Assembly (NCBI GenBank): GCA_913778145.1
Contig: CAJYVI010000104.1
Span: forward strand, 43,596 to 107,595
Length of the DNA: 64,000 nt
Source: an uncultured Pseudocitrobacter sp.
GTDB taxonomy: Bacteria; Pseudomonadota; Gammaproteobacteria; Enterobacterales; Enterobacteriaceae
Direction: 5' to 3'
Shown in pieces: positions 10,030 through 40,520 of the stretch. The position numbers were made by a program, and so were the translations under genes. How positions within the stretch are numbered: position 1 is the first letter of the stretch; the number at the start of each line of letters is the position of its first letter. Under the pieces are notes generated by a model. That model searched no databases and was not told where the DNA came from. It was given only the letters and a program-made list of their open reading frames with translations.

Positions 10030-10428
10030 TTACGCGACCATCTGCTCCAGGTGTTCGCGTAACTCCCCTTCCAGAGGCAACGCCTTCTGCGTTTTCAGGT
10101 CAATGCAGACAAACGTAATCAATGCATCCGCCACCACCTGCCCTTCCGGGTCCAGCGTCACTACCTGACTTAACACGCCGCTTTTTCCGTTTAACTGCTC
10201 CACTTTACTGGTTACCGTGAGCACATCGCTCAGCACCGCCGGGCGGCGGTAGTTAATGTTGATGTTCACCACCACAAACGCGATATGGTGCGCAGTCATC
10301 CACTGGAAACTGGCGCTGTTTTCCAGCCCATCCCAGCGGGCTTCTTCCAGAAACTCCAGATACCGGGCGTTATTGACGTGCTGATACACGTCCAGGTGAT
10401 ACCCGCGAACTTTAATTTTTGTCTGCAT
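10030..10428 (-). CDS. fadM: Long-chain acyl-CoA thioesterase FadM
   Basis: Single hot-dog-fold thioesterase of 132 residues, identical in length to E. coli FadM (YbaW), which hydrolyses acyl-CoA side products of beta-oxidation. The 4HBT catalytic region HLDVYQHVNNARYLEFLEEARW carries the conserved Asp in the active-site helix. A FadR-like operator 45-60 bases upstream predicts repression by FadR and induction by fatty acids. Confidence 0.96.
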   Translation of the reverse strand: MQTKIKVRGYHLDVYQHVNNARYLEFLEEARWDGLENSASFQWMTAHHIAFVVVNININYRRPAVLSDVLTVTSKVEQLNGKSGVLSQVVTLDPEGQVVADALITFVCIDLKTQKALPLEGELREHLEQMVA

Positions 10429-10472
10429 AGCGCCATAGCCTTACATGTTATTAGAAGAGTCAGAGGTCACAC

Positions 10473-10489
10473 CACTGGTATGACCTCTT
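10473..10489 (-). promoter_or_regulatory. FadR-like operator upstream of fadM
   Basis: CACTGGTATGACCTCTT keeps the CTGGT-NN-GACC core of FadR operators and lies upstream of fadM, a known FadR-regulated gene in E. coli. It is part of a larger inverted repeat (AGAGGTCA at 10462-10469 with TGACCTCT at 10481-10488). Confidence 0.65.
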
Positions 10490-10532
10490 TAGTCTGGCAA
10501 ACTTTGACGCCAGTGCAAGCTACGAGAAGCAA

Positions 10533-10976
<444 letters not shown>

Positions 10977-10986
10977 TCAAATGTGG

Positions 10987-11009
10987 AAAAGGCCGCGAAA
11001 GCGGCCTTT
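10987..11009 (-). terminator. Intrinsic terminator of ppiD
   Basis: Stem AAAGGCCGC/GCGGCCTTT with a GAAA tetraloop and U residues on both sides. It lies 44 bases after the ppiD stop and upstream of ybaV. Confidence 0.85.
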
Positions 11010-11052
11010 GAGGTGTGCATCGCATTACAAATTAATGCGAGGAGGGTTCCGA

Positions 11053-12927
11053 TTATTGTTGCTGATCGACGATGTCGCCCATCTTAATCTTCGCCGCTTT
11101 ACGCAGGTTGCTCATCAACGCTTCGAACGCGATTTGCGCGTTGTTCTGAGTGATACCCTGAACCATCGCTTTCTTCTGCGCTTCCGGCATTTCGCCCGCT
11201 TTCACTTCGTCCAGCGCCAGCAGAACTACGTTGCCCTGCATGTCGTTGCCCATACCGAAGCTTGGTTTACCAGGCTGCGGTAACGGCAGTTCAAAGGTGG
11301 CCTGGCTCAGCGGATCCTGACCGGTACGGCTCAGGGTTTTGGTTTCGCCAAAACGCAGACCAGCAGCTTTCATCGCCTCGTCGCCTTTACCGTCTTTCAG
11401 CGCAGCCAGCAGTTTTTCAGCATCGAGTTTCGCCTGCTGTTCTGCTTTGTTGTGCTTAACGATATCGATCACCTGCGCTTTCACTTGATCCAGCGGTTTC
11501 ACGCTTTCTGCTTTGTGCTCAGCGACACGCAGAACGAAAGCACGATCGCCATCGACGGTGATGATGTCGGAGTTGTTGCCCGGCGCGCCGTTTTCGCCCA
11601 CCAGACCGCCGTTGAAGATAGCATCGGTGACCGGTTTGAAGTTCAGCTCAGCCGGGACATTGTCGTGGCCGAACCAGTCGGTTACCACGGCTTTCACACC
11701 CGCAACCTGCTCAGCACCTGCCAAAGAGTCGTTGTCGCTGCTGGCGGCATCGCTCACTTTCTGCTGCAGGGCATAGTAGGCATCCAGCGCTTTTTCCTGT
11801 TTCACTTTGTCAGCGATTTGCGCGTGAACATCGGCCAGCGGTTTAACCTGTTCCGGCTGGATATCGTCCAGACGCGCAATCAGGAAGCCCACGGAAGATT
11901 TGATGACGCCAGAGAGCTGACCTTTTTCTTTCAGGCCCGCGTCTTTCAGTTCCTGCACGGTGGCGGAGTCTTCCAGCCAACCCATGTCGCCGCCGTTACG
12001 TTTAGAGATAACGTCGGTCGATTTCTCTTTCGCTATCGCGGCAAAATCGCCGCCGTTGTTCAGCTCATCAAGGATGGCTTTCGCATCGGCTTCGGTTTTA
12101 GTTTGGATGATGCTGTAACGTTTACGCTCAGGCTGAGTGAACTCATCTTTGTGCTGGTCGTAATAGGCCTGTATGTCAGCGTCAGAAGCGGAAGACGGCA
12201 TGCTCGCCGCGTCCAGTTTGATGTAGCTGACGCGGAACTGCTCCGGCGCAACAAACTGGCCTTTATTCTGCTCGTAGTAGCTGGCAACTTCCTGATCGCT
12301 CACCTGCTGCTTCGCTGCCAGCGCGTTGACATCGATGGTGGCTTCACGCACCAGACGCTGCTGGGACACCAGCGCGGCCAGCTGGTCGGTTTCACCCGGC
12401 AGCATAAAATCGGTACCCGCAACGGCGCTAATCAGCTGGTTAGTGGTCAGCTGGTTACGCAATGCCTGCGCGTACTGGTCTGCGGTCATCCCCATTTGAT
12501 TCACCAGCGCGTTATAGCGGGTGTTATCGAATTTACCTTCGCTCTGGAAGGCCGGGGTCGCGAAGATTGCTTTACGCACCTGTTCGTCGCTGATGCCGAG
12601 GCCCAGCTCTTTAGCGTATTGGTCGAGCAGCGCTTCGTCCACCAGGCGGCTCAGCACCTGTTGACGCATCGTTTTGATGTAATTTTCGTTCGCCGCCAGT
12701 TCGGAGAATTGATCGCCCATCTGCTGCTGCATACGGTTACGTTCGCTGGCAACAGCGTTTTCAAACTGACTACGGCTGATTTCCTGGCCATTCACTTTCG
12801 CGGCATAGTTGTTACCGCCGCCGATAAGATAGCCACTTACGCCGGTCAAAATGAACGACACAATAATGATACCGAAAATTACCTTGAGCACGACGCTATT
12901 AGCTGCCGTGCGTAAATTGTCCATCAT
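11053..12927 (-). CDS. ppiD: Periplasmic folding chaperone PpiD
   Basis: Membrane-anchored SurA-like chaperone at the SecYEG exit, 624 residues (E. coli 623). One N-terminal membrane helix (about 13-34, VIFGIIIVSFILTGVSGYLI) is followed by SurA-N-like helices, one parvulin domain (about 266-356, containing KEKSTDVISKRNGGDMGWL) and a C-terminal helical region. E. coli PpiD has little or no isomerase activity, so chaperoning is the safer function. It follows hupB in the same direction with its own promoter space of 262 bases. Confidence 0.97.
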   Translation of the reverse strand: MMDNLRTAANSVVLKVIFGIIIVSFILTGVSGYLIGGGNNYAAKVNGQEISRSQFENAVASERNRMQQQMGDQFSELAANENYIKTMRQQVLSRLVDEALLDQYAKELGLGISDEQVRKAIFATPAFQSEGKFDNTRYNALVNQMGMTADQYAQALRNQLTTNQLISAVAGTDFMLPGETDQLAALVSQQRLVREATIDVNALAAKQQVSDQEVASYYEQNKGQFVAPEQFRVSYIKLDAASMPSSASDADIQAYYDQHKDEFTQPERKRYSIIQTKTEADAKAILDELNNGGDFAAIAKEKSTDVISKRNGGDMGWLEDSATVQELKDAGLKEKGQLSGVIKSSVGFLIARLDDIQPEQVKPLADVHAQIADKVKQEKALDAYYALQQKVSDAASSDNDSLAGAEQVAGVKAVVTDWFGHDNVPAELNFKPVTDAIFNGGLVGENGAPGNNSDIITVDGDRAFVLRVAEHKAESVKPLDQVKAQVIDIVKHNKAEQQAKLDAEKLLAALKDGKGDEAMKAAGLRFGETKTLSRTGQDPLSQATFELPLPQPGKPSFGMGNDMQGNVVLLALDEVKAGEMPEAQKKAMVQGITQNNAQIAFEALMSNLRKAAKIKMGDIVDQQQ

Positions 12928-28177: not shown

Positions 28178-28251
28178 ATACGGCTATTAACCGTATCGCT
28201 TGACGCGATGACGCTTTGGGCATAGATTATGTCATACGGCTAACAGCCGTA
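28178..28251 (+). promoter_or_regulatory. Promoter with two flanking operators for the toxin-antitoxin pair
   Basis: Palindrome 1 (28178-28196) has arms ATACGG/CCGTAT around seven bases. Palindrome 2 (28235-28251) reads TACGGCTAACAGCCGTA. Between them, TTGACG (28200-28205) and TAGATT (28223-28228) are 17 bases apart. One site abuts the -35 and the other covers the start point, the layout expected for autorepression by a ribbon-helix-helix antitoxin. Confidence 0.72.
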
Positions 28252-28305
28252 CCATGTATGGAATCCATCACCAGGATTTCATTCAGCCACATTAAGAGGT
28301 CAATC

Positions 28306-28617
28306 ATGCCTGGTAAAACCGCCACTCTGCCCGACGTCGAGAAAGCGCTGAAAAACGCGCGGGTTGAACTGAAAACCAGCTCCGACGCCAAGAACAGACT
28401 TCGCGAAGCTGCCGAAGCCGTTGGGTTAGATTTAAGCGCCTTTATCCTGAGCGCCGCCATGGAACGCGCCGAAAGCGTGCTGGATAACCAGCGTCGTCGC
28501 GAGCTTTCGAATCAAAGCTGGGAACTGATGAATCAGCTCATCGCGGAACCTGCTCAGCCGACGCTCGCACTCAAGGCGTTAATGAGAAGGAAAAAGAGCG
28601 ATGACCAATCTGCCTGA
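28306..28617 (+). CDS. DUF1778 (TacA-like) ribbon-helix-helix antitoxin
   Basis: 103-residue protein with a ribbon-helix-helix N-terminal region (RVELKTSSDAKNRLREAAEAVGLDLSAFILSAAMERAESVL) typical of DUF1778 antitoxins that neutralise GNAT toxins. The ATG at 28306 follows AAGAGG; earlier in-frame starts lie inside the promoter region. It overlaps the downstream toxin gene by 17 bases, the usual coupling. The C-terminal tail probably wraps the toxin. Confidence 0.85.
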   Translation: MPGKTATLPDVEKALKNARVELKTSSDAKNRLREAAEAVGLDLSAFILSAAMERAESVLDNQRRRELSNQSWELMNQLIAEPAQPTLALKALMRRKKSDDQSA

Positions 28618-29143
28618 GGAAAGTGCCCTCCCCCCGGTGCTCTCCTGTAATTATCAGTCCGACATAACCTACCCGGGGCAAAAACACTTCGATTGCGGTA
28701 ACCCCGTTATCGATAAATTTGTTCGCACGTCACTTAAGAAGAGCGTGCATAACAGTGACTGTGCTGCAAAAGCACTTATCGACAGTAACAGCGGCGAACT
28801 TATCGGCATCTGCACCTTTACCGCCTACTCGCTGGAAAAACAACGCGTGTCGGGCGTATTGCAAGGCTCGCAACCGTCAGAAATAGGCGTCGTAAGGCTG
28901 GTCATGCTTGGCGTGGCGCGTAAATACCAAAAACAGGGCTATGGTCAGGATTTGCTGTGCGACTTTTTTGAGCATGTCAAAATCATCCACCAGGCATTGC
29001 CGATTAAAGGAGTCTATCTCGACGCTGACCCGGCAGCGATTAATTTTTATGTACGCCTCGGTTTTGTGCAACTTTCGGATACGCCGAATGCCTTTGGCGC
29101 TGTGCCGATGTTTTTAGCCATTCAGCATATTATTGCGGCGTAG
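28601..29143 (+). CDS. GNAT-family acetyltransferase toxin (TacT/AtaT-like)
   Basis: 180-residue GNAT protein. The acetyl-CoA pyrophosphate loop is visible as RKYQKQGYGQDLL, and a conserved Tyr lies in INFYVRLGF. Toxins of this class acetylate the aminoacyl group of charged tRNAs and stop translation. Gene order and overlap with a DUF1778 antitoxin support the call; the tRNA target cannot be read from sequence. The pair sits between cyoE and the Sel1 genes, a junction where E. coli has yajR. Confidence 0.85.
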   Translation: MTNLPEESALPPVLSCNYQSDITYPGQKHFDCGNPVIDKFVRTSLKKSVHNSDCAAKALIDSNSGELIGICTFTAYSLEKQRVSGVLQGSQPSEIGVVRLVMLGVARKYQKQGYGQDLLCDFFEHVKIIHQALPIKGVYLDADPAAINFYVRLGFVQLSDTPNAFGAVPMFLAIQHIIAA

Positions 29144-29179: not shown

Positions 29180-30106
29180 TTAGGGTGCCAGCGTCAAAAT
29201 CCCCGTCTTTAATAAATCGATGTCTTTACCGTTAAGGGTTGCTGAAGCGGCGGTTACCCTAAGTTTAACAGCCGAACAAAATTCAGGTTGGTAGATGATA
29301 AGTTCCGCATCGCTGGAAGATGAGCTCCTGATATAATCAGTGAAATTAATATCCATCCTGTTCATACCGAAATGCACAAAGCCCAATGTTTGCGTTATCT
29401 GCTTACTGGCATTGTTTTTTATACCTAGCGTGACGCGCAGGTTTGCGACTTCACCCAGTTTATTGGTACTCACACTAAAGCCGTATCGACAGGTAAAATC
29501 ATCATTTTCATCTGCCAAAAACATATACACGCGCTGAAGTTTCAGTACGGGTAATGTGGCACTCGACATTTTTCGATCAACCATGTCTTTTTGGCAAGCG
29601 GCAAGAAAATCCTCCGGGCCTGTGAAAATGTGTTCGCCCTTATCCAGATATTCCTTCGCTTTAGTACAATCCGCCTCAACGTACTGCCCATTGGCATACA
29701 TCAGCCCCAGATTTGACCAGGCCGCTTTCTCTCCATGCTGTGCGGCCTGATTAAAGAAAGAATAAGCTTTTGCGTAATCCACACGGACCTGCTCGCCGGA
29801 ATAGTAGATTTGACCAAGCGCCAGCAGCGCCTCACCCTCTCCCTGTTTAGCGGCTAACGTAAACCATTTTAAAGCCTCCTGAATATCCGGCGTTGTATTA
29901 TATCTGGGCTGATAATATTCCCAACCCAGCAACGCCTGCGCCTGCGCATCGCCCTTATTGGCCATATCGCGCAGCGCGCTCAGGAGTTTAGGTACTGATT
30001 TTTCACCTAACCCTCGATCGTACAATTCGCGTGCTTTCCCTTCTGCCAGACAGCCTGATGACAGTATCAGGCTACAAAGCAGTAAAATCCTTTTAGTACG
30101 CCCCAT
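29180..30106 (-). CDS. Sel1-repeat lipoprotein, paralogue of the gene upstream
   Basis: 308 residues. The lipobox LSSGC gives a lipidated cysteine at residue 19. About three Sel1 (TPR-like) repeats occupy residues 53-160 (AQALLGWEYY, ALLALGQIYYSGE, AWSNLGLMYANGQY). A roughly 125-residue C-terminal domain of unknown fold follows, ending GKDIDLLKTGILTLAP. That domain is shared with the neighbouring paralogue. A good AAGGAG site precedes the ATG, 21 bases after the stop of the paralogue. Specific function unknown; Sel1 proteins commonly mediate protein-protein contacts. Visibly more AT-rich than the flanking backbone. Confidence 0.8.
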   Translation of the reverse strand: MGRTKRILLLCSLILSSGCLAEGKARELYDRGLGEKSVPKLLSALRDMANKGDAQAQALLGWEYYQPRYNTTPDIQEALKWFTLAAKQGEGEALLALGQIYYSGEQVRVDYAKAYSFFNQAAQHGEKAAWSNLGLMYANGQYVEADCTKAKEYLDKGEHIFTGPEDFLAACQKDMVDRKMSSATLPVLKLQRVYMFLADENDDFTCRYGFSVSTNKLGEVANLRVTLGIKNNASKQITQTLGFVHFGMNRMDINFTDYIRSSSSSDAELIIYQPEFCSAVKLRVTAASATLNGKDIDLLKTGILTLAP

Positions 30107-30127
30107 CGCTTACTCCTTGATGATGCT

Positions 30128-31582
30128 TTACGGTACCAGCGTCAAAATCCCCGCCTTCAATAAATCAACGTCTTTACCCTTAATTTTTGCCGTCGCATGA
30201 GTCATCTCCAGGGTCAGTCCATCACAAAACGCGTTATCCTCAATATGCAGCAACGTGGATTGACTAAACGAATTATGTTCATCTCCCTCCAGGTTGCGAT
30301 TAAGCGTATTCATGCCAAACGGAGCAAACGACACGGTATCTGTCAGTACCGCACCTTCTCGATTTTTGATGTTTAAACCCACGCGCATATTGGCAACTTC
30401 GCCAATGCGGTTAGTATCAACTTGCAGATGGAGCTGGCAGGCGTAGCTATCGTTTTTACCACCGGTAAATGTGCCGACCTGTTTAAACGTCAGCACAGGC
30501 AGCTCATTACTCCCCTTTTCGCGTGCCTGCTTGTCTTTTTCACAGGTGGCTAAAAAGCCGTCAATACGCCCCACCCTGCTCTGCCCTTTATCAAAATAGT
30601 CTGCGGCCAGTTTGCAGTCGGTCTGCACATATTGTCCGTTGGTGTACATCCAGGCCAGATAACGCCACGCAACGGCGCTACCTTGCTCTTTCGCCGTATC
30701 AAAAAGCTGGAACGCTTTGGTATAATCAATATCAACCTGTTCACCAAGATAATAAATTATACCGAGGTTGGTTAATGCATCTTTGTTACCCTGCTTCGCC
30801 GCCAGTTCATACCATTTGAGTGCTTGCTGAATATCCGGTTTAACGCCCTTCTCTCCCGTTGCATATAAAAGCCCCAGGATATTCTGTGCGTCAGGCTGGC
30901 CCAGTTCCGCCGCCCTGCGATACCACTTCATTCTAAACGCGTCTTTATTGGCAACCTTAATAAACCTGGCATCATAAAGCTGGCCGACCAGAAAAGTAAT
31001 GTCGGGATCGTTATCTTTCGCCCAAAATTCAGCAAGATTCAATACATCTGATTTTGAAAAGCCCAGACGATTCATAAGCAGTTCATTCCCCGTATTGGCA
31101 TAACTCATCACCATCTGGAGAAAAGTAAAACGCTGGCTGGGATCTTTTATCGCCGTAGCTTTTGCCGAATAGATTTCATCGACCAGCTCATTAAGTGTTG
31201 TCGCATCAACGAGAATATCTTGTTTATTCGCTTTGTCAGCAAGCGCCTGAGCGCGAGTGGTATTCAGCGCAACGCCTTGCCCGTACTGATAGAAATAGCG
31301 CGCGTTGTAGCAGCCGTAGCGGCTATCCAGATCGCAGGCTTGCTCGTAGAAGTGAAGGGCTTTTTCTACATCGGCAGAGCCTGAAACGCCGTATTCATAG
31401 ATAAAACCCAGCTTCATCAGCGCGTCGGGATCTTTCGCTTTCGCCAGCGACTGGAGTCCGGCTAATGCTTTTTTTTCACCCCCGGCGAACAAATGATAAT
31501 ACCCTTCAGCATCATCGGCAGCCTGACATACCGCAGAGACAGATAACATTAAAAACAGCCAACTCCATTTATTTAACCACAT
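30128..31582 (-). CDS. Exported Sel1-repeat protein
   Basis: 484 residues from the ATG at 31582, chosen because it opens a clear signal peptide (WLFLMLSVSAVCQA) and is preceded by AAGGG; a TTG 10 codons upstream is weaker. Sel1 repeats lie in two blocks (about 50-125 and 225-360), with units such as DALTNLGIIYYLGEQ and AWRYLAWMYTNGQY. The C-terminal domain (about 360-484) ends GKDVDLLKAGILTLVP and aligns with the downstream paralogue. Unlike that lipoprotein, it has a signal peptidase I-type leader. The pair arose by tandem duplication; function unknown. Confidence 0.8.
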   Translation of the reverse strand: MWLNKWSWLFLMLSVSAVCQAADDAEGYYHLFAGGEKKALAGLQSLAKAKDPDALMKLGFIYEYGVSGSADVEKALHFYEQACDLDSRYGCYNARYFYQYGQGVALNTTRAQALADKANKQDILVDATTLNELVDEIYSAKATAIKDPSQRFTFLQMVMSYANTGNELLMNRLGFSKSDVLNLAEFWAKDNDPDITFLVGQLYDARFIKVANKDAFRMKWYRRAAELGQPDAQNILGLLYATGEKGVKPDIQQALKWYELAAKQGNKDALTNLGIIYYLGEQVDIDYTKAFQLFDTAKEQGSAVAWRYLAWMYTNGQYVQTDCKLAADYFDKGQSRVGRIDGFLATCEKDKQAREKGSNELPVLTFKQVGTFTGGKNDSYACQLHLQVDTNRIGEVANMRVGLNIKNREGAVLTDTVSFAPFGMNTLNRNLEGDEHNSFSQSTLLHIEDNAFCDGLTLEMTHATAKIKGKDVDLLKAGILTLVP

Positions 31583-31705
31583 TCCCTTGCCCTTAAACTT
31601 TATTAACGCCAACCAATAAACTTAAAACATATTTAAAACAGTAATACATTCACTCAACGAATATTCACCCCCTAAAAATAAAGGGCAATAAAGCACAGGA
31701 AAATA

Positions 31706-31772: not shown

Positions 31773-32531
31773 TTAACTCACCAGCATTTCCCGCGCACTA
31801 TACAGCAAATCCAGATGATCGCGGCACAGCGCCTCCAGCGACGTGCGCGACTGATGGCTGGTTAAGCTCAACGCGCCCCAGTAGAGCCCTTCTCTGTCGG
31901 CCAGCGGTACGGCGACCACCAGCATGCCGATTTCAAACTCCTGTTCGATGGTGGCATAACCCTGCTTGCGCACCAGCGCAATACGCGCCATCAGCTCATC
32001 AATTTCAACGGCGGTGTACGGCGTGCGGCGTTCGCGTTTAATTTGCCGTAGCACCGCCTCGCACTCTTCTTCCGGCAGCGACGCCAGCCATAAACGCCCG
32101 CCCGCCGTGCAGTACACCGGCACGCGCTCACCCAGGCGCACGGACGTCGAGTTAAACGGCGTGTGCTTACTGCGCGCGATATACACCAACTCATTTTCAT
32201 CAATCACTCCCACCGACGCATGCTCTTCCGTTCGGCTGGCGATGTACTCAACGATGGGGCGCACCATACGCGGGAACTGGGCGGAATCGACGTACGCCTG
32301 CCCCAGCCGTAGCGCTTTGGGCGTCAGCCAGTAGTAGCGCCCGTCAGTGCAGAGATAGCGTTCATGCACCAGCGTCAGGAAAAATCGCCTCGCCGCACTC
32401 TGCGTCAGGCCGCTCATTTTCGCCGCCTGCGGTACCGTCAGGCGCGGATGTTCTTTGGAGAAAAGCTGAATAATCGCCAGCCCTTTTTGCAGGCCGACGA
32501 TCAAATCACGGGAATGAATCTGATTTTGCAT
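31773..32531 (-). CDS. IclR-family transcriptional regulator (PcaU/PobR-like)
   Basis: 252 residues: an N-terminal winged helix (about 8-72, LTVPQAAKMSGLTQSAARRFFLTLVHERYL) and a C-terminal IclR effector domain (about 75-250). Features such as the opening GLQKGLAIIQLF and the AAARRFFLTL-type recognition helix point to the PcaR/PcaU/PobR branch, whose members respond to aromatic acids and usually activate an adjacent divergent operon. It is transcribed away from the seven-gene operon starting at 32684, across 152 bases carrying PcaU-like repeats. The effector is inferred to be the operon substrate or a product. Confidence 0.85.
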   Translation of the reverse strand: MQNQIHSRDLIVGLQKGLAIIQLFSKEHPRLTVPQAAKMSGLTQSAARRFFLTLVHERYLCTDGRYYWLTPKALRLGQAYVDSAQFPRMVRPIVEYIASRTEEHASVGVIDENELVYIARSKHTPFNSTSVRLGERVPVYCTAGGRLWLASLPEEECEAVLRQIKRERRTPYTAVEIDELMARIALVRKQGYATIEQEFEIGMLVVAVPLADREGLYWGALSLTSHQSRTSLEALCRDHLDLLYSAREMLVS

Positions 32532-32568
32532 AGTCGTTCACACTTTCGCAACAAACAAGCCCATTTAC

Positions 32569-32599
32569 TGCGATTATCGCACTGTTAGTGCGATTAACA
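32569..32599. promoter_or_regulatory. Palindrome plus direct repeat: predicted IclR-family operator
   Basis: TGCGATTATCGCA (32569-32581) is a palindrome, and TGCGATTA recurs at 32589, exactly 20 bases (two helical turns) on. PcaU of Acinetobacter is known to bind a palindrome plus a direct repeat. The site lies about 60-90 bases upstream of the predicted operon start, an activator position. Confidence 0.65.
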
Positions 32600-32621
32600 A
32601 CCCACCTGTCCGAATTCTGCG

Positions 32622-32666
32622 TTGTTGGTCACCGGATCCGCTGAAATACTCAATCAACATTTGATT
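32622..32666 (+). promoter_or_regulatory. Predicted promoter of the hydroaromatic operon
   Basis: TTGTTG (32622-32627) and AATACT (32645-32650) are 17 bases apart, a weak sigma-70 promoter as expected for an activated operon. It is followed by a small palindrome AATCAACATTTGATT (32652-32666) over the likely start point. Confidence 0.45.
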
Positions 32667-32683
32667 AACAAGTGAGATGAGAA

Positions 32684-33505
32684 ATGGTCAGTGGATTTAC
32701 GCAAATCGTTGCTGTGCTCGGGCATCCCATCACGCAGGTGAAATCGCCGGAAAACTTCAACCGCTACTTTGCCGATACGCAAATGGATAAGGTCATGATC
32801 CCGGTCGATATCGCCCCGGAAGCGGTTGCCGATTACCTGAACGCCCTGCGCGGCTGGCAAAACATGAGCGGCGTGCTGGTTACTGTGCCGCATAAACAGC
32901 GCGTTGCCGGGTTACTGGACAGCCTGACGCCGCGCGCGCGCCATCTCAATGCGGTGAACGTGGTCAGAAAGCTGGCTGATGGGCGTCTGGAGGGCGATAT
33001 GCTCGACGGCGTCGGCTTCCAGCTTGCCGCCGAAGCGCACGGTTTTACCGCCACAGGCAAACGCGCGCTGTTATCTGGCTGCGGCGGCGTCGGCAGCGCG
33101 ATTGCCTGGGGATTGTGTGAAGCGGGCATTAGTCACCTGGCGCTGTACGACCAGGATGACGCCACGCGTCAGCGGCTGGAAAACCGTCTGGCGACGCACT
33201 TCCCGGAAGTCCATCTCAGTGAACTGCCCGCTACCCTTGCAGGCCTCGACCTGCTGGTCAACGGTTCTCCAGCGGGCATGCAGGGTTTTGATCCACTGCC
33301 ATTGCCGCAGCCTCTGCTCGACACCTTGCAAAACAGCACCCACGTTGCCGATGTGGTAACGGCTCCGGTGGTCACCCCGCTGCTGGCCTTTGCACAAACG
33401 CGCGGCTGCACGGTGCAAACCGGCCCGGAAATGGCGCTGGCACAGATGAAACTGATGGGCCAGTTTATTGGCGCGATCCCTGCTGAGCATGAGGCGGCCG
33501 CATGA
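32684..33505 (+). CDS. Shikimate/quinate dehydrogenase-family protein (AroE-like)
   Basis: 273-residue member of the AroE/YdiB family. The catalytic Lys71 (VTVPHK), Asn92 (AVNV) and Asp108 are conserved, as is a glycine-rich nucleotide loop (SGCGGVGSAIA, about 129-139). Two substrate-contact motifs differ from biosynthetic AroE: SKS is VKS (19-21), and GDNTD is GDMLD (104-108). The loss of one carboxylate-binding serine suggests a different but related cyclic substrate. It is the first gene of the operon and overlaps the next by 4 bases (ATGA). It is unlikely to be the housekeeping aroE. Confidence 0.8.
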   Translation: MVSGFTQIVAVLGHPITQVKSPENFNRYFADTQMDKVMIPVDIAPEAVADYLNALRGWQNMSGVLVTVPHKQRVAGLLDSLTPRARHLNAVNVVRKLADGRLEGDMLDGVGFQLAAEAHGFTATGKRALLSGCGGVGSAIAWGLCEAGISHLALYDQDDATRQRLENRLATHFPEVHLSELPATLAGLDLLVNGSPAGMQGFDPLPLPQPLLDTLQNSTHVADVVTAPVVTPLLAFAQTRGCTVQTGPEMALAQMKLMGQFIGAIPAEHEAAA

Positions 33506-35178
33506 AAAACTGGGATGTGATCGTTATTGGCAGCGGCGCGGCGGGCTTTGCTACCGCGGTCACGGCCTGCTGCAAAGGCTTGTCGGTGCTGATGCTGGAG
33601 AAAGCGCCGCACTTTGGCGGCACGTCGGCGATTTCCGGCGGCGCGGTGTGGATCAACGATACCGATCAGGCTCGCCAGGCGGGTAAAAGCGGTTCACCAG
33701 ACGCCATCAAAACCTATCTGCGCACCATTATTGGCGATGCGAATTACCGCCCGGCACTGGTGGATGCATTTGTGGATTCCGGGCGCGAAGCGCTGGCCTT
33801 CCTTGAGCAGGAAGGCGCGGTGAAATACAGCCTGCGCCCGCTCTCACCCGATTATTACCCGGATGAAGCCGGGGCGGTCGATGCGGGCCGTGCGCTGGAA
33901 GTGGTGGAATTTGATGGTCGTGAGCTGGGTGAACACTTTAGCACCCTGCGATCTCCGCCGCCGGGTATGCTGCTGTTTGGCGGCATGATGGTCAATCGTG
34001 TCGATATTCAGCACTTCCTGGATATGCGCCGTTCGTGGACATCATTTCGCCACTGTTCGCGCCTGCTGCTGCGCTACGGCCGCGATCGTCTTCGTCACCC
34101 GCGCGGCACGCGTCTGGCGATGGGCAACGCGTTGATTGCGCGGATGGCGACGCTGGCGCTGCGCAAAGGGCTGGACCTGGCGCTGAACGTCAACGTGACC
34201 GCGTTAATCGAAGAGCAGGGCCGCGTTACGGGCGTCACCATCAAACGTGAGGGCAAAGAAGAACAGCTGCACGCACGCTGCGGCGTGGTGCTGGCGGCTG
34301 GCGGCTTTGCTGCCGGGCAAATTGCCGCACGGTTCCGTCCGGCAACGCAGCAACATTTCACCATGTCGCCTGCCACCAACGACGGCGCTGCATTTCAGCT
34401 GGCGGGACGCGTCGGCGCGCAAGAAGGTGCCGATCTTCCCTCTAACTTTTTCTGGGCCCCGGTGTCGGTTTTACGTCACCCGGACGGCACAGAAGAGCGC
34501 TTCCCGCATCTGGTGACCGACCGCGCCAAACCGGGCGTAATTGCCGTCAATCAGCGCGGCGTACGCTTTGTAAATGAGTCGAACTCTTACCACCACTTCG
34601 CCAGCGCGATGCAGCAGCAGCCGGAAAACGCGCCCTGCTATCTGATTTGTGATGCCCTGGCGATGAAAAATTACGGTCTCGGCCTCGCGCGTCCGGCTCC
34701 GGTTAATAACGATGCGCTGATTAAAGCGGGATATTTGTATAAAGCCGATACCCTCGCCGCGCTCGCGCAGCAGCTCAACCTCGACCCGCGCACGCTGGAA
34801 GAGACCGTCGCACGCTATAACCGCGATGCCGCTAACGGTAGCGACAGCGAATTCCGCAAAGGCGGGAACAGTTACAACCGGGCGATGGGCGACCCGGCGC
34901 ATCAGCCAAACGCCTGCAACGCACCGCTCAGTCAGGGGCCGTTCTACGCCATCATCCTTTATACCGGCGATTTAGGCACCTCGCGCGGGCTGGTCACTAC
35001 CGCCGACGCGCAGGTGATGAATCAGCAAAACGAGGCCATTCCTGGCCTGTATGCGGTCGGTAATGACATGGATTCCATGATGGCGGGCACCTATCCCGGC
35101 CCCGGCATTACGCTCGGCCCGGCGCTCACCTTCGGCTATCTCGCCGCGAAACATATGGTTCAACAACAATCCCTTTAA
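33502..35178 (+). CDS. FAD-dependent dehydrogenase, FAD_binding_2 family (first copy)
   Basis: 558-residue flavoprotein of the fumarate reductase/3-ketosteroid-delta1-dehydrogenase family. The dinucleotide motif is GSGAAG (10-15), followed by FGGTSAISGGAVW. The C-terminal FAD contact YPGPGITLGPALTFGY is typical of delta1-dehydrogenases. No haem-binding CxxCH and no signal peptide are seen, so it is soluble and cytoplasmic. Enzymes of this family introduce or remove a C=C bond next to a carbonyl, which would suit ring desaturation of a cyclic ketone made by the AroE-like enzyme. That link is inference. Confidence 0.8.
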   Translation: MKNWDVIVIGSGAAGFATAVTACCKGLSVLMLEKAPHFGGTSAISGGAVWINDTDQARQAGKSGSPDAIKTYLRTIIGDANYRPALVDAFVDSGREALAFLEQEGAVKYSLRPLSPDYYPDEAGAVDAGRALEVVEFDGRELGEHFSTLRSPPPGMLLFGGMMVNRVDIQHFLDMRRSWTSFRHCSRLLLRYGRDRLRHPRGTRLAMGNALIARMATLALRKGLDLALNVNVTALIEEQGRVTGVTIKREGKEEQLHARCGVVLAAGGFAAGQIAARFRPATQQHFTMSPATNDGAAFQLAGRVGAQEGADLPSNFFWAPVSVLRHPDGTEERFPHLVTDRAKPGVIAVNQRGVRFVNESNSYHHFASAMQQQPENAPCYLICDALAMKNYGLGLARPAPVNNDALIKAGYLYKADTLAALAQQLNLDPRTLEETVARYNRDAANGSDSEFRKGGNSYNRAMGDPAHQPNACNAPLSQGPFYAIILYTGDLGTSRGLVTTADAQVMNQQNEAIPGLYAVGNDMDSMMAGTYPGPGITLGPALTFGYLAAKHMVQQQSL

Positions 35179-35191
35179 CCAGGAGAACGAC

Positions 35192-35512
35192 ATGATCTAC
35201 GAAAAACGCACCTACACCATCAATCCTCTGAAAATGGCCGACTGGCTGGCGCTGTATAAGAGCGACGCTTATGCGGTGCAAACCGAGCACCTCGGCAAAC
35301 TGATTGGCTTTTTCTTTACTGAAATTGGCGTGGTGAATCAGGTGGTGCATATCTGGGCGTATGAAAGCCTGGATGACCGTCTGGTTCGCCGTGGCCGCAT
35401 GGCCCAGGACGAACGCTGGCTGACCTTCTCGCGTAAAAACCGTGAGCTGGGGGCGGTTGAGCGTCTGGAATCGGTGCTGATGCGCCCGACCGATTTCTCC
35501 CCGCTGCAATAA
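35192..35512 (+). CDS. NIPSNAP-family protein
   Basis: 106-residue ferredoxin-like alpha+beta barrel protein of the NIPSNAP family (start MIYEKRTYTINPLKM; HIWAYESLDDR; RLESVLMRP). Small NIPSNAP proteins sit in catabolic operons, but their activity is largely unknown. It lies 13 bases after one FAD dehydrogenase and 10 before the other, both with good ribosome-binding sites, suggesting a role with the pair. Confidence 0.8.
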   Translation: MIYEKRTYTINPLKMADWLALYKSDAYAVQTEHLGKLIGFFFTEIGVVNQVVHIWAYESLDDRLVRRGRMAQDERWLTFSRKNRELGAVERLESVLMRPTDFSPLQ

Positions 35513-35522
35513 GGAGCCCAGG

Positions 35523-37223
35523 ATGAGCAGGCAGGTAAAGGTCGATGTTCTGGTGGTCGGTTCCGGTGCTGCGGGTTTATCCGCCGCCGTGACCGCCGCG
35601 CTGCACGGCGCACGCGTGCTGGTCGCGGAAAAAGAGCCGGTGATTGGCGGAACCAGCGCCTGGTCCGGCGGCTGGCTGTGGATCCCACGCAATCCGCTGG
35701 CGCGTGAAGAGGGCATTAACGAAGAGGAATCCGCCCCGCTTACCTACCTGAATGCGGAGATGGACGGCCGCCCTGCTGATGCGCGCCTGCAAACGTTTCT
35801 GCGCTACGGCCCGGAGATGGTCGATTTCTTTCGCTCACGTACCGCGGTGCAATTTCTCTCCGGCAGCAAAATGCCGGATTTCCACAACTCCCCCGGTTTT
35901 GCCACCGGCGGGCGCTCGGTCACCGCGCAGCCTTACGACGGGCGCGGGCTGGGCGACTGGCTGTACCGTCTACGCGCCCCCCTGGAGACCATCAGCCTGG
36001 CAGGCATGGGGATCGCGGGCGGTGCGGATATGGCACATTTTTTCAACGCCACCCGTTCACCACGATCGGCATTCTACGCCACCCGTCGCCTGCTGCGCCA
36101 CAACTGGCAGCGTCTGCGCTACGGGCGTGGGCAGCACCTGGTGAACGGCAATGCGCTGGTCGCGCGTCTGCTACGTTCGGCGCTGGATGCCGACGTTCAG
36201 TTCCAGTTAAACGCCCCGGTAGCCCGATTGCTGAAGCAGGACGGGCAAATTATCGGCGCGGTGCTCGATAGCGATGAAGGCGAGATAACCGTCAGCGCTG
36301 GCGCGGTGGTACTGGCCTGCGGTGGCTTTCCGCACGATAAAGCACGGCTGGCGCAGGAAGTGCCGCACGCGCGTCAGGGCTACGGCCACTTTTCCGCCGC
36401 GCCGCCGGGGAATCAGGGCGATGGCATTCGGCTTGGCGAAGCGGTTGGCGGCCATTTTGAGCACAATCTCAAGCACCCCATGGCCTGGGCGCCGGTATCA
36501 CGCGTCACGATGGCAAGCGGGTTACAGCTCGCGTTCCCGCATCTGGTCGAGCGTGCCAAGCCGGGGTTTATCGCCGTATTACCCAACGGGAAACGCTTCA
36601 CCAACGAAGCCGATTCCTATCACGATTTTATCGCAGCACTGATTGCCGCCACACCGGAAGGTGAAAAACCGCAGGCATGGCTGCTGGCAGACCAGCGCAC
36701 GCTGAGCCGTTACGGATTAGGCCACGCGCGGCCCACGCCGTTTCACGTTAAGGCGTGGCTGCGCAACGGCTATTTGCAGTCCGGCGAGACGCTGGAAATG
36801 CTGGCGAAAAACTGCGGGATTGAAGCAACCACGCTGGTTGAAACCGTCGCGCGCTTCAACGGTTTTGCCGAACGCGGTGTGGATGAAGAGTTTCAGCGCG
36901 GCGCATCCGCCTACAACTGCGCCCAGGGCGATGCCACGCATCAACCCAGCCCGACGCTGGGCGCGATAAAACAGGGGCCCTATTACGCCGTGCGCATTCT
37001 GCCCGGTTCGCTGGGTTCATTCAGCGGCCTGCTGACCGATGAACATGCGCAGGTGCTGAACGATCAACATCAGCCCATCCCCGGCCTGTACGCCGTGGGG
37101 AACGATATGTCGAGCGTCATGCAGGGGTTCTACCCCAGCGGCGGCATAACGCTTGGCCCGGCCATGACCTTCGGGTATCTGGTGGGAAAAAATCTTGCCG
37201 CAAACATAACAAAAACAGCGTAA
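35523..37223 (+). CDS. FAD-dependent dehydrogenase, FAD_binding_2 family (second copy)
   Basis: 566 residues, clearly paralogous to the gene 340 bases upstream. It has GSGAAG at the N-terminus, IGGTSAWSGGWLWIP, and a C-terminal FAD segment YPSGGITLGPAMTFGY. Its substrate-side segments differ from the first copy, so the two probably act on successive intermediates or form a heteromer. It is preceded by AAGGAG. The 15-base direct repeat at 37202 and 37249 spans its stop codon. Confidence 0.8.
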   Translation: MSRQVKVDVLVVGSGAAGLSAAVTAALHGARVLVAEKEPVIGGTSAWSGGWLWIPRNPLAREEGINEEESAPLTYLNAEMDGRPADARLQTFLRYGPEMVDFFRSRTAVQFLSGSKMPDFHNSPGFATGGRSVTAQPYDGRGLGDWLYRLRAPLETISLAGMGIAGGADMAHFFNATRSPRSAFYATRRLLRHNWQRLRYGRGQHLVNGNALVARLLRSALDADVQFQLNAPVARLLKQDGQIIGAVLDSDEGEITVSAGAVVLACGGFPHDKARLAQEVPHARQGYGHFSAAPPGNQGDGIRLGEAVGGHFEHNLKHPMAWAPVSRVTMASGLQLAFPHLVERAKPGFIAVLPNGKRFTNEADSYHDFIAALIAATPEGEKPQAWLLADQRTLSRYGLGHARPTPFHVKAWLRNGYLQSGETLEMLAKNCGIEATTLVETVARFNGFAERGVDEEFQRGASAYNCAQGDATHQPSPTLGAIKQGPYYAVRILPGSLGSFSGLLTDEHAQVLNDQHQPIPGLYAVGNDMSSVMQGFYPSGGITLGPAMTFGYLVGKNLAANITKTA

Positions 37224-37263
37224 TACATCGCTTTGCCACGGAAGGCTAAAACATAACAAAAAC
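37202..37263. repeat. 15-base direct repeat around the stop of the second FAD gene
   Basis: AAACATAACAAAAAC occurs at 37202-37216 and again at 37249-37263. The unit between looks like a small slippage duplication or a former deletion hotspot. Confidence 0.7.
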
Positions 37264-37290
37264 CTTACCTGCAACTGTACTGGAGTCCCT

Positions 37291-38094
37291 ATGAACACGC
37301 GTTCCTTGTCTCTTGCTGCACTGACGATGCTCGACGTTCCGCCACCGGAACAGGTGCGCATCGCCGCCGAAACGGGCTTTACGCACGTTGGCCTGCGCCT
37401 GCTCCCCGCCACGCCGACAGACCCTGACTACGATATGCTTGGCGACACCGAAACCGTTCGCGAAACCCTCGCCGCCCTGCGGGAAACGGGCGTTCGCGTG
37501 TCGGACGTAGAGATTGTCCGTTTAACGCCAGATTTCAATCTTGACGCCCTGCGTCCCTTCCTGGAAACCTCCGCGCGTCTGGAAGCCCGTCAGGTGTTGG
37601 TCGCCGGGAATGATGACAACGTCACACGCTGCGCGGAGAATCTGGCGCGGCTGGCCCAGGCCGGGAAAACCTACGGCCTGACCATGAACCTCGAACCGAT
37701 GCCGTGGACGGCGCTGAAAACCGTGCGTGACGCGCAGACGTTGATTACCGCCAGCGGGCAGAACAACGTCGGCATTCTGGTCGACGCGATTCACTTCTGG
37801 CGTGCGGGGGAATCGTTGACCACGCTGGCTGACATTCCGGCTGCGCAACTGAACTATATGCAACTGTGCGATGCCCCTGCAAAAATCCCTGACACCATCG
37901 ATGAGCTGATTTACCAGGCGCGCAGCGCACGAAAAGTGCCGGGCGAAGGCGGCCTCGATTTACGCGGTTTGCTGGCGGCGTTGCCTGCCACGCTCCCCGT
38001 CTCTCTCGAAGTCCCGCTGGCGGGCGCACAAGGTGCCCTTCCCGCTCAACAACGCGCACAGCTGCTGTTTAACGCCGCGCAATCCTTCCTGTGA
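37291..38094 (+). CDS. Xylose isomerase-like TIM-barrel protein (sugar phosphate isomerase/epimerase family)
   Basis: 267-residue AP endonuclease-2/xylose-isomerase-like TIM barrel. Likely metal ligands are Glu135 (NLEPMPW), Asp165 (VDAIHFWR), His168 or Gln191, and Glu240 (SLEVPL). This superfamily includes inosose isomerases and dehydratases and the 3-dehydroshikimate dehydratases that form protocatechuate. The AroE-like gene and aromatic-acid carrier in the operon make a dehydratase or isomerase of a cyclic hydroxy-ketone the best guess; a sugar epimerase cannot be excluded. Confidence 0.78.
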   Translation: MNTRSLSLAALTMLDVPPPEQVRIAAETGFTHVGLRLLPATPTDPDYDMLGDTETVRETLAALRETGVRVSDVEIVRLTPDFNLDALRPFLETSARLEARQVLVAGNDDNVTRCAENLARLAQAGKTYGLTMNLEPMPWTALKTVRDAQTLITASGQNNVGILVDAIHFWRAGESLTTLADIPAAQLNYMQLCDAPAKIPDTIDELIYQARSARKVPGEGGLDLRGLLAALPATLPVSLEVPLAGAQGALPAQQRAQLLFNAAQSFL

Positions 38095-38116
38095 ATCACT
38101 CACCCGAGGACTCGTT

Positions 38117-39481
38117 ATGGCTCAGACTCAACGCCTGGACGTCAGAGAGTTAATTAACACCCAGCCGCTCAGCCGCTATCAGAAGCTGGTGATTTTTTTA
38201 GGGTTTGCCGTAATTGCGCTGGACGGTTTTGATATCGCCATCATGGGGTTTATCGCCCCAGTGCTGAAACAGGAATGGGGCGTCAGCAACCATGAACTGG
38301 GCTTTGTGATCAGCACCGCGCTGATTGGCCTGGCGCTGGGGGCGATGTTCTCCGGCCCGCTCGCCGACTGGCTGGGGCGCAAGAAGATAATCATTAACAG
38401 CGTCTTCTTCTTCGGTTTCTGGACCGTCGCCACCGCGTTTTCGCACAACATCGAACAGATGATTTTCTTCCGCTTTATGACCGGGTTGGGCCTCGGTGCC
38501 GCAATGCCCAATATCAGTACGCTGGTCTCGGAGTATGCGCCGGAACGGAAGCGCTCGTTCATCATTACGGTAATTTTCTGCGGTTTCACCTTCGGGGCGG
38601 CAATTGGCGGCTTTACCGCGTCATGGCTGATCCCAATGTATGGCTGGCATTCACTGATGGCGCTGGGCGGCATTTTACCGCTGCTGTTTGTGCCCATTTT
38701 GCTGTGGAAACTGCCGGAGTCCGTGCGTTTTCTGGTGATTAAGCAAGCCCCCGCCGGGCAGATTTGCGCGATCCTAAAGCGGCTCTATCCGGGAAAAATT
38801 GCCGATAACGTGAGTTTCGTTCTGCCCACGCTGCCGGTAAGCGGCAACGCGATGCGCATCGTGCTCTCACCGCAATACCGTTTCGGCACGCTAATGCTGT
38901 GGCTCGTCTACTTTATGGGGCTGTTTCTGGTTTACATTCTCGGCAGCTGGCTGCCTACCCTGGTGAAAGAGATTGGTCTCACCGTTAGCCAGGCGGCAAT
39001 CATGACCGCCATTTATCAGGCGGGCGGCACGGTGGGCTCGCTGTTCGCCGGGTGGTTGATGGACCGCATTAACCCGCATCGGGCGCTGGGAGTCATTTTT
39101 GCCGTTGGCGGGCTGGTGACGATGGCGATTGGTTTTGCGGCCGCCAGCTTCACGTTACTGTGCCTGCTGGCGCTGATTAGCGGCGCCTGTCTGAACGGCG
39201 CGAATACCGGCATGAACGCGCTCTCTGCGCGCTTTTATCCCACCCAGGCGCGCGCCACCGGTTCAAGCTGGATGCACGGCGTCGGGCGTATCGGGGCGAT
39301 CCTCAGTGCCTTTGCCGGGGCTGAAATGCTGGCGATGGATCTCAAATTTGAAACCGTCTTCCTGCTGCTTGGCATTCCGGCGCTGCTCACCGTGCTGGGC
39401 GTCGCGGCAAAAGGCTGGTTTGCCTCGGGCCAACCCGACAATGTTCCTCCCGTTACCTCTTCGCTCAGGAGCCCATCATGA
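38117..39481 (+). CDS. MFS transporter, aromatic acid:H+ symporter type (PcaK-like)
   Basis: 454 residues with about 12 membrane helices. The first helix carries LDGFDIAIMGFIAPVL, the DGFD hallmark of the AAHS family (PcaK, MhpT, BenK), and the first cytoplasmic loop has PLADWLGRKK. Such carriers import aromatic or hydroaromatic acids with protons. The ATG at 38117 follows GAGGA; the frame is open 28 codons upstream into the previous gene. Its stop overlaps the next start by 4 bases. Confidence 0.85.
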   Translation: MAQTQRLDVRELINTQPLSRYQKLVIFLGFAVIALDGFDIAIMGFIAPVLKQEWGVSNHELGFVISTALIGLALGAMFSGPLADWLGRKKIIINSVFFFGFWTVATAFSHNIEQMIFFRFMTGLGLGAAMPNISTLVSEYAPERKRSFIITVIFCGFTFGAAIGGFTASWLIPMYGWHSLMALGGILPLLFVPILLWKLPESVRFLVIKQAPAGQICAILKRLYPGKIADNVSFVLPTLPVSGNAMRIVLSPQYRFGTLMLWLVYFMGLFLVYILGSWLPTLVKEIGLTVSQAAIMTAIYQAGGTVGSLFAGWLMDRINPHRALGVIFAVGGLVTMAIGFAAASFTLLCLLALISGACLNGANTGMNALSARFYPTQARATGSSWMHGVGRIGAILSAFAGAEMLAMDLKFETVFLLLGIPALLTVLGVAAKGWFASGQPDNVPPVTSSLRSPS

Positions 39482-40485
39482 ATCTGACAAGACTCGCCGT
39501 GATCGGCGCGGGCGCCATCGGGCGCAAACATATCGAGGTTATTCAGCATGCGTCAGATGCCAGGCTGGTGGCGCTTGCCGATCCCTCCGAACAGGCGCGG
39601 GAACTGGCGACTGAACTCGGCGTCGCGTGGTTTGCTGACGTCGAGGAAATGCTGGATGAAATCGAGCCAGACGGGGTGATCAACGCCACGCCAAACACGC
39701 TGCACGTGCCCTGCGCGCTGGCCTGCGTAACACGCGGTATTCCGGTGCTGGTGGAAAAACCGGTAGCGGAATCTCCTGAGCGTGCGCGTGAGCTGGTGGA
39801 CGCAGCGCTTGCGCACAATGTGCCGGTATTAGTTGGCCATCATCGCCGTCATAACGCCCTGACGGCGGCGGCGAAAACGCTTATCGACAGCGGCAAACTC
39901 GGCAATATCGTCGCTGTTTCCGCCCACTGGCTACTGCAAAAACCGGACGACTATTTTGACGTAAGCTGGCGACGCGAGCCCGGCGCGGGGCCGCTATTGG
40001 TTAACCTGGTGCACGATATCGATCTTATGCGCTATCTGCTGGGCGAAATTGAAGAAGTCCAGGCGATGGCCTCCAGCGAAACGCGCGGCTTTGCCAACGA
40101 GGACAGCGCGGTGGTGAATTTGCGTTTCGCACGCGGCACGCTGGGCAGCGCGGTGTTGAGCGATTGCAGCGTTAGCCCGTGGAGTTGGGAGATGAACTCG
40201 GCGGAGAACCCGATTTACGCGCACACGGCGGAAAACTGCTACCTGATTTCCGGCACGCTGGGCGCGCTGGCGATACCGCAGATGCGCTGGTGGCGCTACG
40301 GCGAGAAAAGCGGCTGGCACGAGCCGCTTATCAGTGAGACGTTGCACATAGACGCCATCGACCCGTTTATCCTGCAACTGAACCACTTTATTGCCGTTAT
40401 TCGCGGCGAGGCCACGCCGATTATCGACGCCGCCGATGCGCTACGATCGCTCGAGGTTATCGGCGAGATCCGCCAGGCAATTTGA
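39478..40485 (+). CDS. Gfo/Idh/MocA-family NAD(P)-dependent oxidoreductase
   Basis: 335 residues with an N-terminal Rossmann fold (VIGAGAIGRKH, 8-18), the EKP motif (LVEKPVAES) carrying the family lysine, and a C-terminal alpha/beta domain with the NLVHDIDLMRYL His. Members oxidise sugar or cyclitol hydroxyls, including inositols. It is the last operon gene, followed by a terminator. In context it probably handles a cyclic polyol intermediate or side product. Confidence 0.82.
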   Translation: MNLTRLAVIGAGAIGRKHIEVIQHASDARLVALADPSEQARELATELGVAWFADVEEMLDEIEPDGVINATPNTLHVPCALACVTRGIPVLVEKPVAESPERARELVDAALAHNVPVLVGHHRRHNALTAAAKTLIDSGKLGNIVAVSAHWLLQKPDDYFDVSWRREPGAGPLLVNLVHDIDLMRYLLGEIEEVQAMASSETRGFANEDSAVVNLRFARGTLGSAVLSDCSVSPWSWEMNSAENPIYAHTAENCYLISGTLGALAIPQMRWWRYGEKSGWHEPLISETLHIDAIDPFILQLNHFIAVIRGEATPIIDAADALRSLEVIGEIRQAI

Positions 40486-40497
40486 CCTTCAGGCCAG

Positions 40498-40520
40498 GGC
40501 CCCGCACAGGGGCCTTTTCT
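40498..40520 (+). terminator. Intrinsic terminator of the hydroaromatic operon
   Basis: GGCCCC/GGGGCC stem with a 5-nt loop and TTTT, 12 bases after the last operon gene and before yajR. Confidence 0.85.

Follow-up and report, generated by a model that had tools for sequence, protein, structure and literature searches.

A conserved seven-gene operon in Pseudocitrobacter and its relatives as a candidate peripheral route to protocatechuate

A 64,000-nucleotide stretch of DNA from an uncultured Pseudocitrobacter sp. (contig CAJYVI010000104.1 of assembly GCA_913778145.1; the whole stretch is called the window here) carries seven closely packed plus-strand genes at 32684-40485, preceded by a divergent gene for a PcaU-like regulator of the IclR family. 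In order, they encode an AroE-like dehydrogenase, a flavin adenine dinucleotide (FAD) flavoprotein (FAD1), a NIPSNAP-domain protein, a second flavoprotein (FAD2), a xylose-isomerase-like TIM barrel, a major facilitator superfamily (MFS) transporter and a Gfo/Idh/MocA oxidoreductase (Gfo). What compound would such a combination of enzymes consume, and what would it be turned into? We consider it probable, from sequence comparison, that the operon is a peripheral pathway in which a reduced, hydroxylated cyclohexanecarboxylic acid would be imported and aromatised to protocatechuate, to be passed on to a PcaGH-dependent β-ketoadipate route encoded elsewhere in the genome.

A gene set kept across genera

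The gene set is real and broadly conserved. A scan of a genome collection with a 14-row alignment of the barrel gave 139 relatives, of which 80 were kept, and among these best 80 of 139 the closest named barrel copies belong to Pseudocitrobacter faecalis and P. vendiensis (94-95% identity). The operon is found in Pseudocitrobacter, Kluyvera, Klebsiella-group bacteria and Citrobacter rodentium. Across 25 Enterobacteriaceae loci (a match here, as in the gene counts below for other genome loci, phylum-draw stretches and plasmid stretches, covers at least 55% of the query), the FAD1, NIPSNAP and MFS genes are found in all and the IclR, AroE and FAD2 genes in 24 each, and the order IclR-AroE-FAD1-NIPSNAP-FAD2-barrel-MFS is constant except at locus L025, the frames of which are broken. 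Because this order recurs from genus to genus, and related sets exist in another phylum, a chance neighbourhood of genes is not a convincing explanation. An earlier, sequence-only reading of the window had proposed looking for synteny of all seven genes; what recurs across the Enterobacteriaceae is the order from the regulator to the MFS gene, but an orthologue of the terminal Gfo gene (at least 74% identity) is found at only 12 of 23 loci and is missing from the other 11. Complete E. coli genomes gave no close match in a search for near matches only.

A possible trace of loss was seen in a family member without the operon. There, at locus L159 (G029:C1:1935201-1935347), an 83-aa frame matches the first 49 residues of the barrel only, at 55%, and could perhaps be the remnant of a lost operon; in the surrounding stretch, the sole further trace of the operon is a 23% match to the MFS transporter.

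Related gene sets occur in Burkholderiales, Rhodobacterales, Rhizobiales and Rhodococcus, their commonest core being the barrel with a flavoprotein of the 3-ketosteroid dehydrogenase (KstD) type. Of 57 other genome loci, mostly from Burkholderiales, 51 have some FAD gene, 44 a FAD2 gene no more than 2 kb from the barrel, 49 NIPSNAP, 48 IclR, 39 an AroE-like gene, 25 MFS and 20 Gfo. The 14 stretches taken from a phylum draw of 398 genomes, which between them take in 15 of the 24 positions with a barrel other than that of the window, hold a FAD gene in ten cases, an AroE-like gene in nine and NIPSNAP in two; for 13 plasmid stretches, hand-chosen from 178 records, the figures are FAD2 12, AroE-like 11 and NIPSNAP 5. 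One Rhodococcus plasmid carries MFS-AroE-FAD-AKR-Gfo-FAD-barrel consecutively, and the reduced sets of Rhodobacterales consist of AroE, transporter, FAD and barrel.

Some of these sets adjoin genes of quinate and shikimate breakdown. A QuiC-like gene lies in the same stretch in five of the 14 phylum-draw cases (L161, L162, L163, L164, L168) and in three of the 13 plasmid cases (L123, L125, L127), with a further one, by annotation, in Gemmobacter (L126). A single stretch of P. aminovorans combines pcaH, pcaC, pcaD and a QuiC-like gene with IclR, FAD, barrel, MFS, AroE-like and aromatic acid symporter genes, and in B. japonicum a type II dehydroquinate dehydratase (AroQ) gene lies near the barrel. 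Between these last two genes (L097, 8339-8992) lies a protein of 218 aa for which neither Pfam nor NCBIfam gave a match at E 0.001, perhaps a diverged NIPSNAP.

Protocatechuate-cleavage genes in operon-bearing genomes

The sequence-only reading had noted that no ring-cleavage enzyme is present in the operon, and such an enzyme is indeed encoded elsewhere, as PcaGH, in operon-bearing genomes. In a family draw (392 genomes from 154 genera, six of these genera with the barrel, scored as a match at E 1e-30; genome G000 belongs to both draws), PcaH is found in 14 of 14 barrel genomes as compared with 29 of the 378 without a barrel. The phylum draw gives 18 of 21 barrel-family genomes against 74 of 377 others, and in eight of these 18 (G774, G497, G677, G605, G704, G471, G462, G716) PcaH lies no more than 45 kb from a barrel gene on the same contig. 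Two of the three genomes that miss PcaH have a LigA domain instead (G631, about 13 kb from the barrel, and G697). PcaC is matched in all 14 barrel genomes of the family draw, 13 times above the cut-off and more weakly in the incomplete G000. PcaG was named by adjacency, as the shorter frame beside PcaH, and the few PcaH matches in the locus counts are weak and likely represent other intradiol dioxygenases. Each of four Pseudocitrobacter genomes has four intradiol-dioxygenase matches: PcaH, the frame beside it that was named PcaG, and two others (309-312 aa) that are probably catechol dioxygenases.

A telling comparison is offered by G378, the barrel of which is identical to a C. rodentium protein. 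This genome has the operon from IclR to MFS together with PcaGH and PcaC, has no Gfo match in the operon, and yielded neither QuiC nor PobA in searches at E 1e-30. In the remaining 13 operon genomes PobA scores above the cut-off and QuiC is matched as well, though only partially in G068, G100 and G220; the cut-off of the QuiC model is very high and is reached by none of 43 genomes. Were 3-dehydroshikimate or 4-hydroxybenzoate what the operon delivers to the usual enzymes, G378 would apparently have no means of taking it further. Most simply read, protocatechuate is the end point of the operon itself, with the caveat that in this genome the barrel might act as the dehydratase. An unexpected neighbour was seen here as well: at 10403-11842 of locus L155, the gene divergent from pcaH encodes a 2-oxoadipate dioxygenase/decarboxylase (HGLS).

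Enzyme residues, a proposed route and its rivals

If protocatechuate is the product, which enzymes of the operon could make it? Residues were counted over alignment rows that cover 85% or more of the query, at identities of at least 38% (FAD1), 45% (FAD2), 30% (AroE) and 35% (barrel), redundancy being kept. KstD enzymes remove hydrogens beside the ketone in ring A of steroids, and the KstD structures 7p18 and 4c3x are the best solved relatives of both flavoproteins. FAD1 has all four KstD residues (Tyr118, Tyr363, Tyr531, Gly535) in 67 of 67 rows and FAD2 has three of the four (Tyr366, Tyr537, Gly541) in 95 of 95, such that the equivalents of KstD Tyr318, Tyr487 and Gly491 are strictly kept in both. 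The roles of Tyr318, Tyr487 and Gly491 in desaturation beside a ketone are set out in PMC5348764. The operon differs from KstD systems in that there are no steroid genes among its named neighbours and its predicted substrate would be a single-ring acid.

Lys71, Asn92 and Asp108 of the AroE-like enzyme are present in 72 of 72 rows, and the protein scores below the cut-offs of both its best shikimate or quinate dehydrogenase model (156.7 bits, cut-off 252) and PRK12549 (133.4, cut-off 235); the latter cut-off is likewise not reached by the AroE-like proteins of L125 and L121. Its closest solved relative over the whole length is 4k28, a member of the shikimate-dehydrogenase family with which it shares a QVKSP motif and from which it differs in sitting in a catabolic operon. 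We take 4k28 to be RifI2 of P. putida, an NAD+-dependent enzyme with weak shikimate activity. The barrel, for its part, has Glu135, Asp165, Glu240 and Arg211 in 116 of 116 rows and falls far short of the QuiC model NF042435 (43.1 bits, cut-off 1200), but the fold is nonetheless similar, its best Foldseek match being the QuiC-type fusion 5hmq. The transporters of the window and of related sets belong to families that carry acids (AAHS, Tct or TRAP).

These observations suggest the following sequence of events. An aromatic-acid-type symporter would import the ring acid, the AroE-like enzyme would oxidise a ring hydroxyl to a ketone, and FAD1 and FAD2 would then strip hydrogens from positions beside that ketone in the manner of KstD. 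The QuiC-like barrel would epimerise or transpose an α-hydroxyketone, or bring about dehydration should a 5-hydroxyl be present, and the product would tautomerise to protocatechuate, which we propose as the end product with fair confidence. Our best guess for the substrate is a quinate- or shikimate-derived acid, probably of plant origin, such as 3,4-dihydroxycyclohexanecarboxylate or dihydroshikimate. Conversion of 3,4-dihydroxycyclohexanecarboxylic acid (C7H12O4) to protocatechuic acid (C7H6O4) takes three two-electron oxidations (AroE, FAD1 and FAD2), whereas for dihydroshikimic acid (C7H12O5) an AroE step, a single desaturation and a dehydration suffice; this hydrogen balance is arithmetic only and not evidence for the identity of the substrate.

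Lactobacilli are known to reduce quinate and shikimate to saturated hydroaromatic acids. It is conceivable, and we put this forward tentatively, that the operon belongs to a widespread undescribed pathway by which such fully saturated products of fermenters would be returned to protocatechuate through one AroE-type oxidation and two KstD-type desaturations, the waste of one microbe being the substrate of another. Enzymes and logic are of known kinds, and it is their combination that is new. The sequence-only reading knew of no described pathway with this gene set, and we too found none in the literature searched, a weak proof of absence given that most subscription journals lay outside it.

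Several observations weigh against the protocatechuate proposal. The Fisher p values for the co-occurrence of barrel and PcaH (4e-15 in the family draw, 6e-10 in the phylum draw) ignore relatedness, in G704 and G471 a barrel copy other than the best-scoring one lies near PcaH, and the barrel family occurs in G628 with neither PcaH nor LigA. A LigA domain is also present in G378, in a frame of 421 aa. The AroE homologues of the QuiC-bearing loci L161 and L168 score above the PRK12549 cut-off and belong to another subfamily than that of the window; as those of the window, L125 and L121 do not, the dehydrogenase differs between types of set. In FAD2, Phe120 replaces KstD Tyr119 (Phe in 78 of 95 rows), whereas FAD1 keeps Tyr there in 67 of 67. 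Both the transporter and the regulator fall narrowly under their curated cut-offs (TIGR00895 and TIGR02431, respectively; Table 1), though TIGR02431 is the best model for the latter. Finally, NIPSNAP, the matches of which are labelled only hypothetical, uncharacterised or NIPSNAP domain protein, has no place in the proposed steps.

How do other pathways fare with the same evidence? The operon resembles the qui pathway (quinate/shikimate dehydrogenase, AroQ and QuiC) in its predicted use of hydroaromatic acids, its AroE-type dehydrogenase, its QuiC-like barrel and its likely end at protocatechuate, and QuiC-like or AroQ genes adjoin some of its relatives. One could imagine a second quinate/shikimate route, in which 3-dehydroshikimate would be formed by the AroE-like enzyme and dehydrated by the barrel, as a second dehydratase for this compound, leaving the flavoproteins to work on side substrates; the rank of 5hmq among the barrel's fold matches, the AroQ gene beside a related barrel and the lack of a QuiC match in G378 would all fit. 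We regard this as unlikely, however, since a QuiC match already exists in 13 of 14 operon genomes (with the reservations on partial matches and model cut-off given above), both flavoproteins have been retained and their catalytic residues are intact, and the AroE-like enzyme departs from 1nvt at Val19 (for Ser) and Met106-Leu107 (for Asn-Thr, a pair that varies in the family). The operon also differs from the qui pathway in having two KstD-type flavoproteins and NIPSNAP, no AroQ, and a stand-alone barrel only distantly related to QuiC. In the Chc pathway, cyclohexanecarboxylate is said to be aromatised to 4-hydroxybenzoate by ChcC1 and ChcC2; like FAD1 and FAD2 as proposed here, these are a pair of FAD desaturases from one superfamily that act in turn beside a ring ketone. 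Matches to the ChcC1 and ChcC2 models extend along most of each flavoprotein, and 13 of the 14 operon genomes have PobA, as would suit a Chc-like conversion of a mono-hydroxylated or plain cyclohexanecarboxylate derivative to 4-hydroxybenzoate. The scores, though, lie far under the cut-offs (436.1 and 496.3 against 900; 337.8 and 347.4 against 1000), the AroE-like enzyme and the QuiC-like barrel would be surplus additions, and 4-hydroxybenzoate as the product is further weakened by G378, which has the operon without a PobA match; this conversion strikes us as quite improbable, protocatechuate being the likelier product.

Gallate is another conceivable product, as KstD-type chemistry beside the ketone of 3-dehydroshikimate or a relative would be expected to yield it, and single-chain gallate dioxygenases are about the size of the 421-aa LigA-domain frame of G378. 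Yet a LigA domain is found in just five of 22 barrel genomes, with none in the window's own genome (84.9% complete), as against PcaH in 19 of 22, and we give gallate very little credence. Breakdown of inositol or another cyclic polyol, with Gfo and the barrel as IolG- and IolE/IolI-like steps, appears more remote still: the cut-offs of the IolG and IolE models are not reached (137.5 bits, cut-off 355, and 20.3 bits, cut-off 290), the Gfo gene is dispensable, the transporters are of acid types, and the regulator and operator are PcaU-like. The sequence-only reading had left the choice between a hydroaromatic acid and a cyclic polyol acid open. Co-occurrence with PcaH, the QuiC-like, AroQ and pca neighbours, the PcaU-type regulator and operator and the ketone-desaturase residues now favour the former, and the polyol part is weakened by the Gfo gene's absence from nearly half of the loci; this support reaches the class of pathway only.

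Operon layout, operator and surroundings

The gene names offered by the sequence-only reading agree with Pfam and NCBIfam, and the tight spacing it described is as it stated (Table 1). Four-base overlaps link AroE to FAD1 and MFS to Gfo, and the gaps between the remaining genes are 13 nt (FAD1-NIPSNAP), 10 nt (NIPSNAP-FAD2), 67 nt (FAD2-barrel) and 22 nt (barrel-MFS, taking the MFS start as 38117).

Table 1. Features of the operon and its control region (window coordinates; scores in bits with model cut-offs)
Feature	Position	Strand	Basis
IclR-family regulator, PcaR/PcaU/PobR-like	31773..32531	-	Pfam IclR_C and HTH_IclR; TIGR02431 270.3 (cut-off 284.75)
Three-box operator: palindrome TGCGATTATCGCA at 32569-32581 and third box GCGATTA at 32590-32596	32569..32596		Pattern in 25/25 Enterobacteriaceae operon loci
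AroE-like dehydrogenase	32684..33505	+	Pfam, NCBIfam; closest solved relative 4k28
FAD1, 3-ketosteroid-1-dehydrogenase-type flavoprotein, PRK12843-like	33502..35178	+	NCBIfam, structural relatives, KstD residues
NIPSNAP-domain protein, 106 aa	35192..35512	+	PF07978; 25/25 Enterobacteriaceae loci
FAD2, 3-ketosteroid-1-dehydrogenase-type flavoprotein, PRK06134 subfamily	35523..37223	+	PRK06134 770.4 (cut-off 747)
Xylose-isomerase-like TIM barrel, QuiC-like fold	37291..38094	+	PF01261; model and fold comparisons
MFS transporter, aromatic acid:H+ symporter type	38117..39481	+	TIGR00895 404.4 (cut-off 418.55); PcaK 480.3 (cut-off 770)
Gfo/Idh/MocA oxidoreductase, dispensable	39478..40485	+	Pfam, NCBIfam; orthologue in 12/23 Enterobacteriaceae loci
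Terminator-like hairpin and U run	40496..40518	+	Folding energy against shuffles

The gap between the IclR and AroE genes holds the palindrome TGCGATTATCGCA, followed 8 bases on by GCGATTA. A three-box operator with an extra direct half-site is described, along with the PcaU-type motif, in PMC8222616, and the window's site fits that pattern by sequence match, having a CGATWATCG core and the additional direct half-site as for PcaU, PcaR and PobR. The exact 27-base pattern recurs at all 25 Enterobacteriaceae operon loci and at none of 148 others, four of which are short loci of the same genus that do not reach the operator region. Because each of the 14 operon genomes has exactly one perfect copy, located at the operon, the IclR protein most likely acts mainly here, in which it would differ from PcaU, PcaR and PobR; its predicted effector is the substrate or an intermediate. 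A wider regulon is weakened by the same count, yet 33 further sites with 2-3 mismatches were found in these genomes, as opposed to 19 matches of a control pattern.

The promoter scan gave no decisive promoter for the operon; it did give a promoter-like site on the minus strand (32600-32573) that overlaps the operator. At the other end, between the operon and yajR (start codon placed at 40625), lies a G+C-rich hairpin followed by UUUU (-16.6 kcal/mol, a stability equalled or exceeded by 4 of 200 shuffles), which is absent from the output of a terminator consensus scan. The operon is 60.5% G+C, the window 54.5%, and the source genome measures 4.0 Mb.

The proposed position at the cyoE-yajR junction is borne out for the family in that matches to both genes flank 21 of 24 Enterobacteriaceae loci, including those of Kluyvera, Raoultella, Klebsiella, Intestinirhabdus and the C. 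rodentium-like G378; of the cyoE/yajR surroundings L025 matches neighbouring genes only, and the Pluralibacter loci L034 and L037 have no matches on either side. In the window strain itself, cyoE and the regulator stand about 3.6 kb apart, with other genes in between. Among these are a TacAT-like toxin-antitoxin pair (28216-29143), made up of a TacA1-like antitoxin gene and an overlapping GNAT acetyltransferase gene, and two tandem Sel1-repeat genes (29180-31612; 47.5% G+C). Neither P. faecalis (L014) nor P. vendiensis (L015) has the Sel1 stretch in its cyoE-IclR interval, and L157 matches it only in part; as judged from these comparisons, it is a strain-variable island adjoining the operon.

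Should the proposal prove true, gut- and plant-associated Enterobacteriaceae, and many soil bacteria with them, would have another peripheral entry to protocatechuate besides the QuiC and PobA routes. Proteins now annotated just as FAD-dependent oxidoreductase, NIPSNAP family protein or TIM barrel protein would acquire functions, and the operon would provide candidate enzymes for turning saturated rings into aromatic acids.

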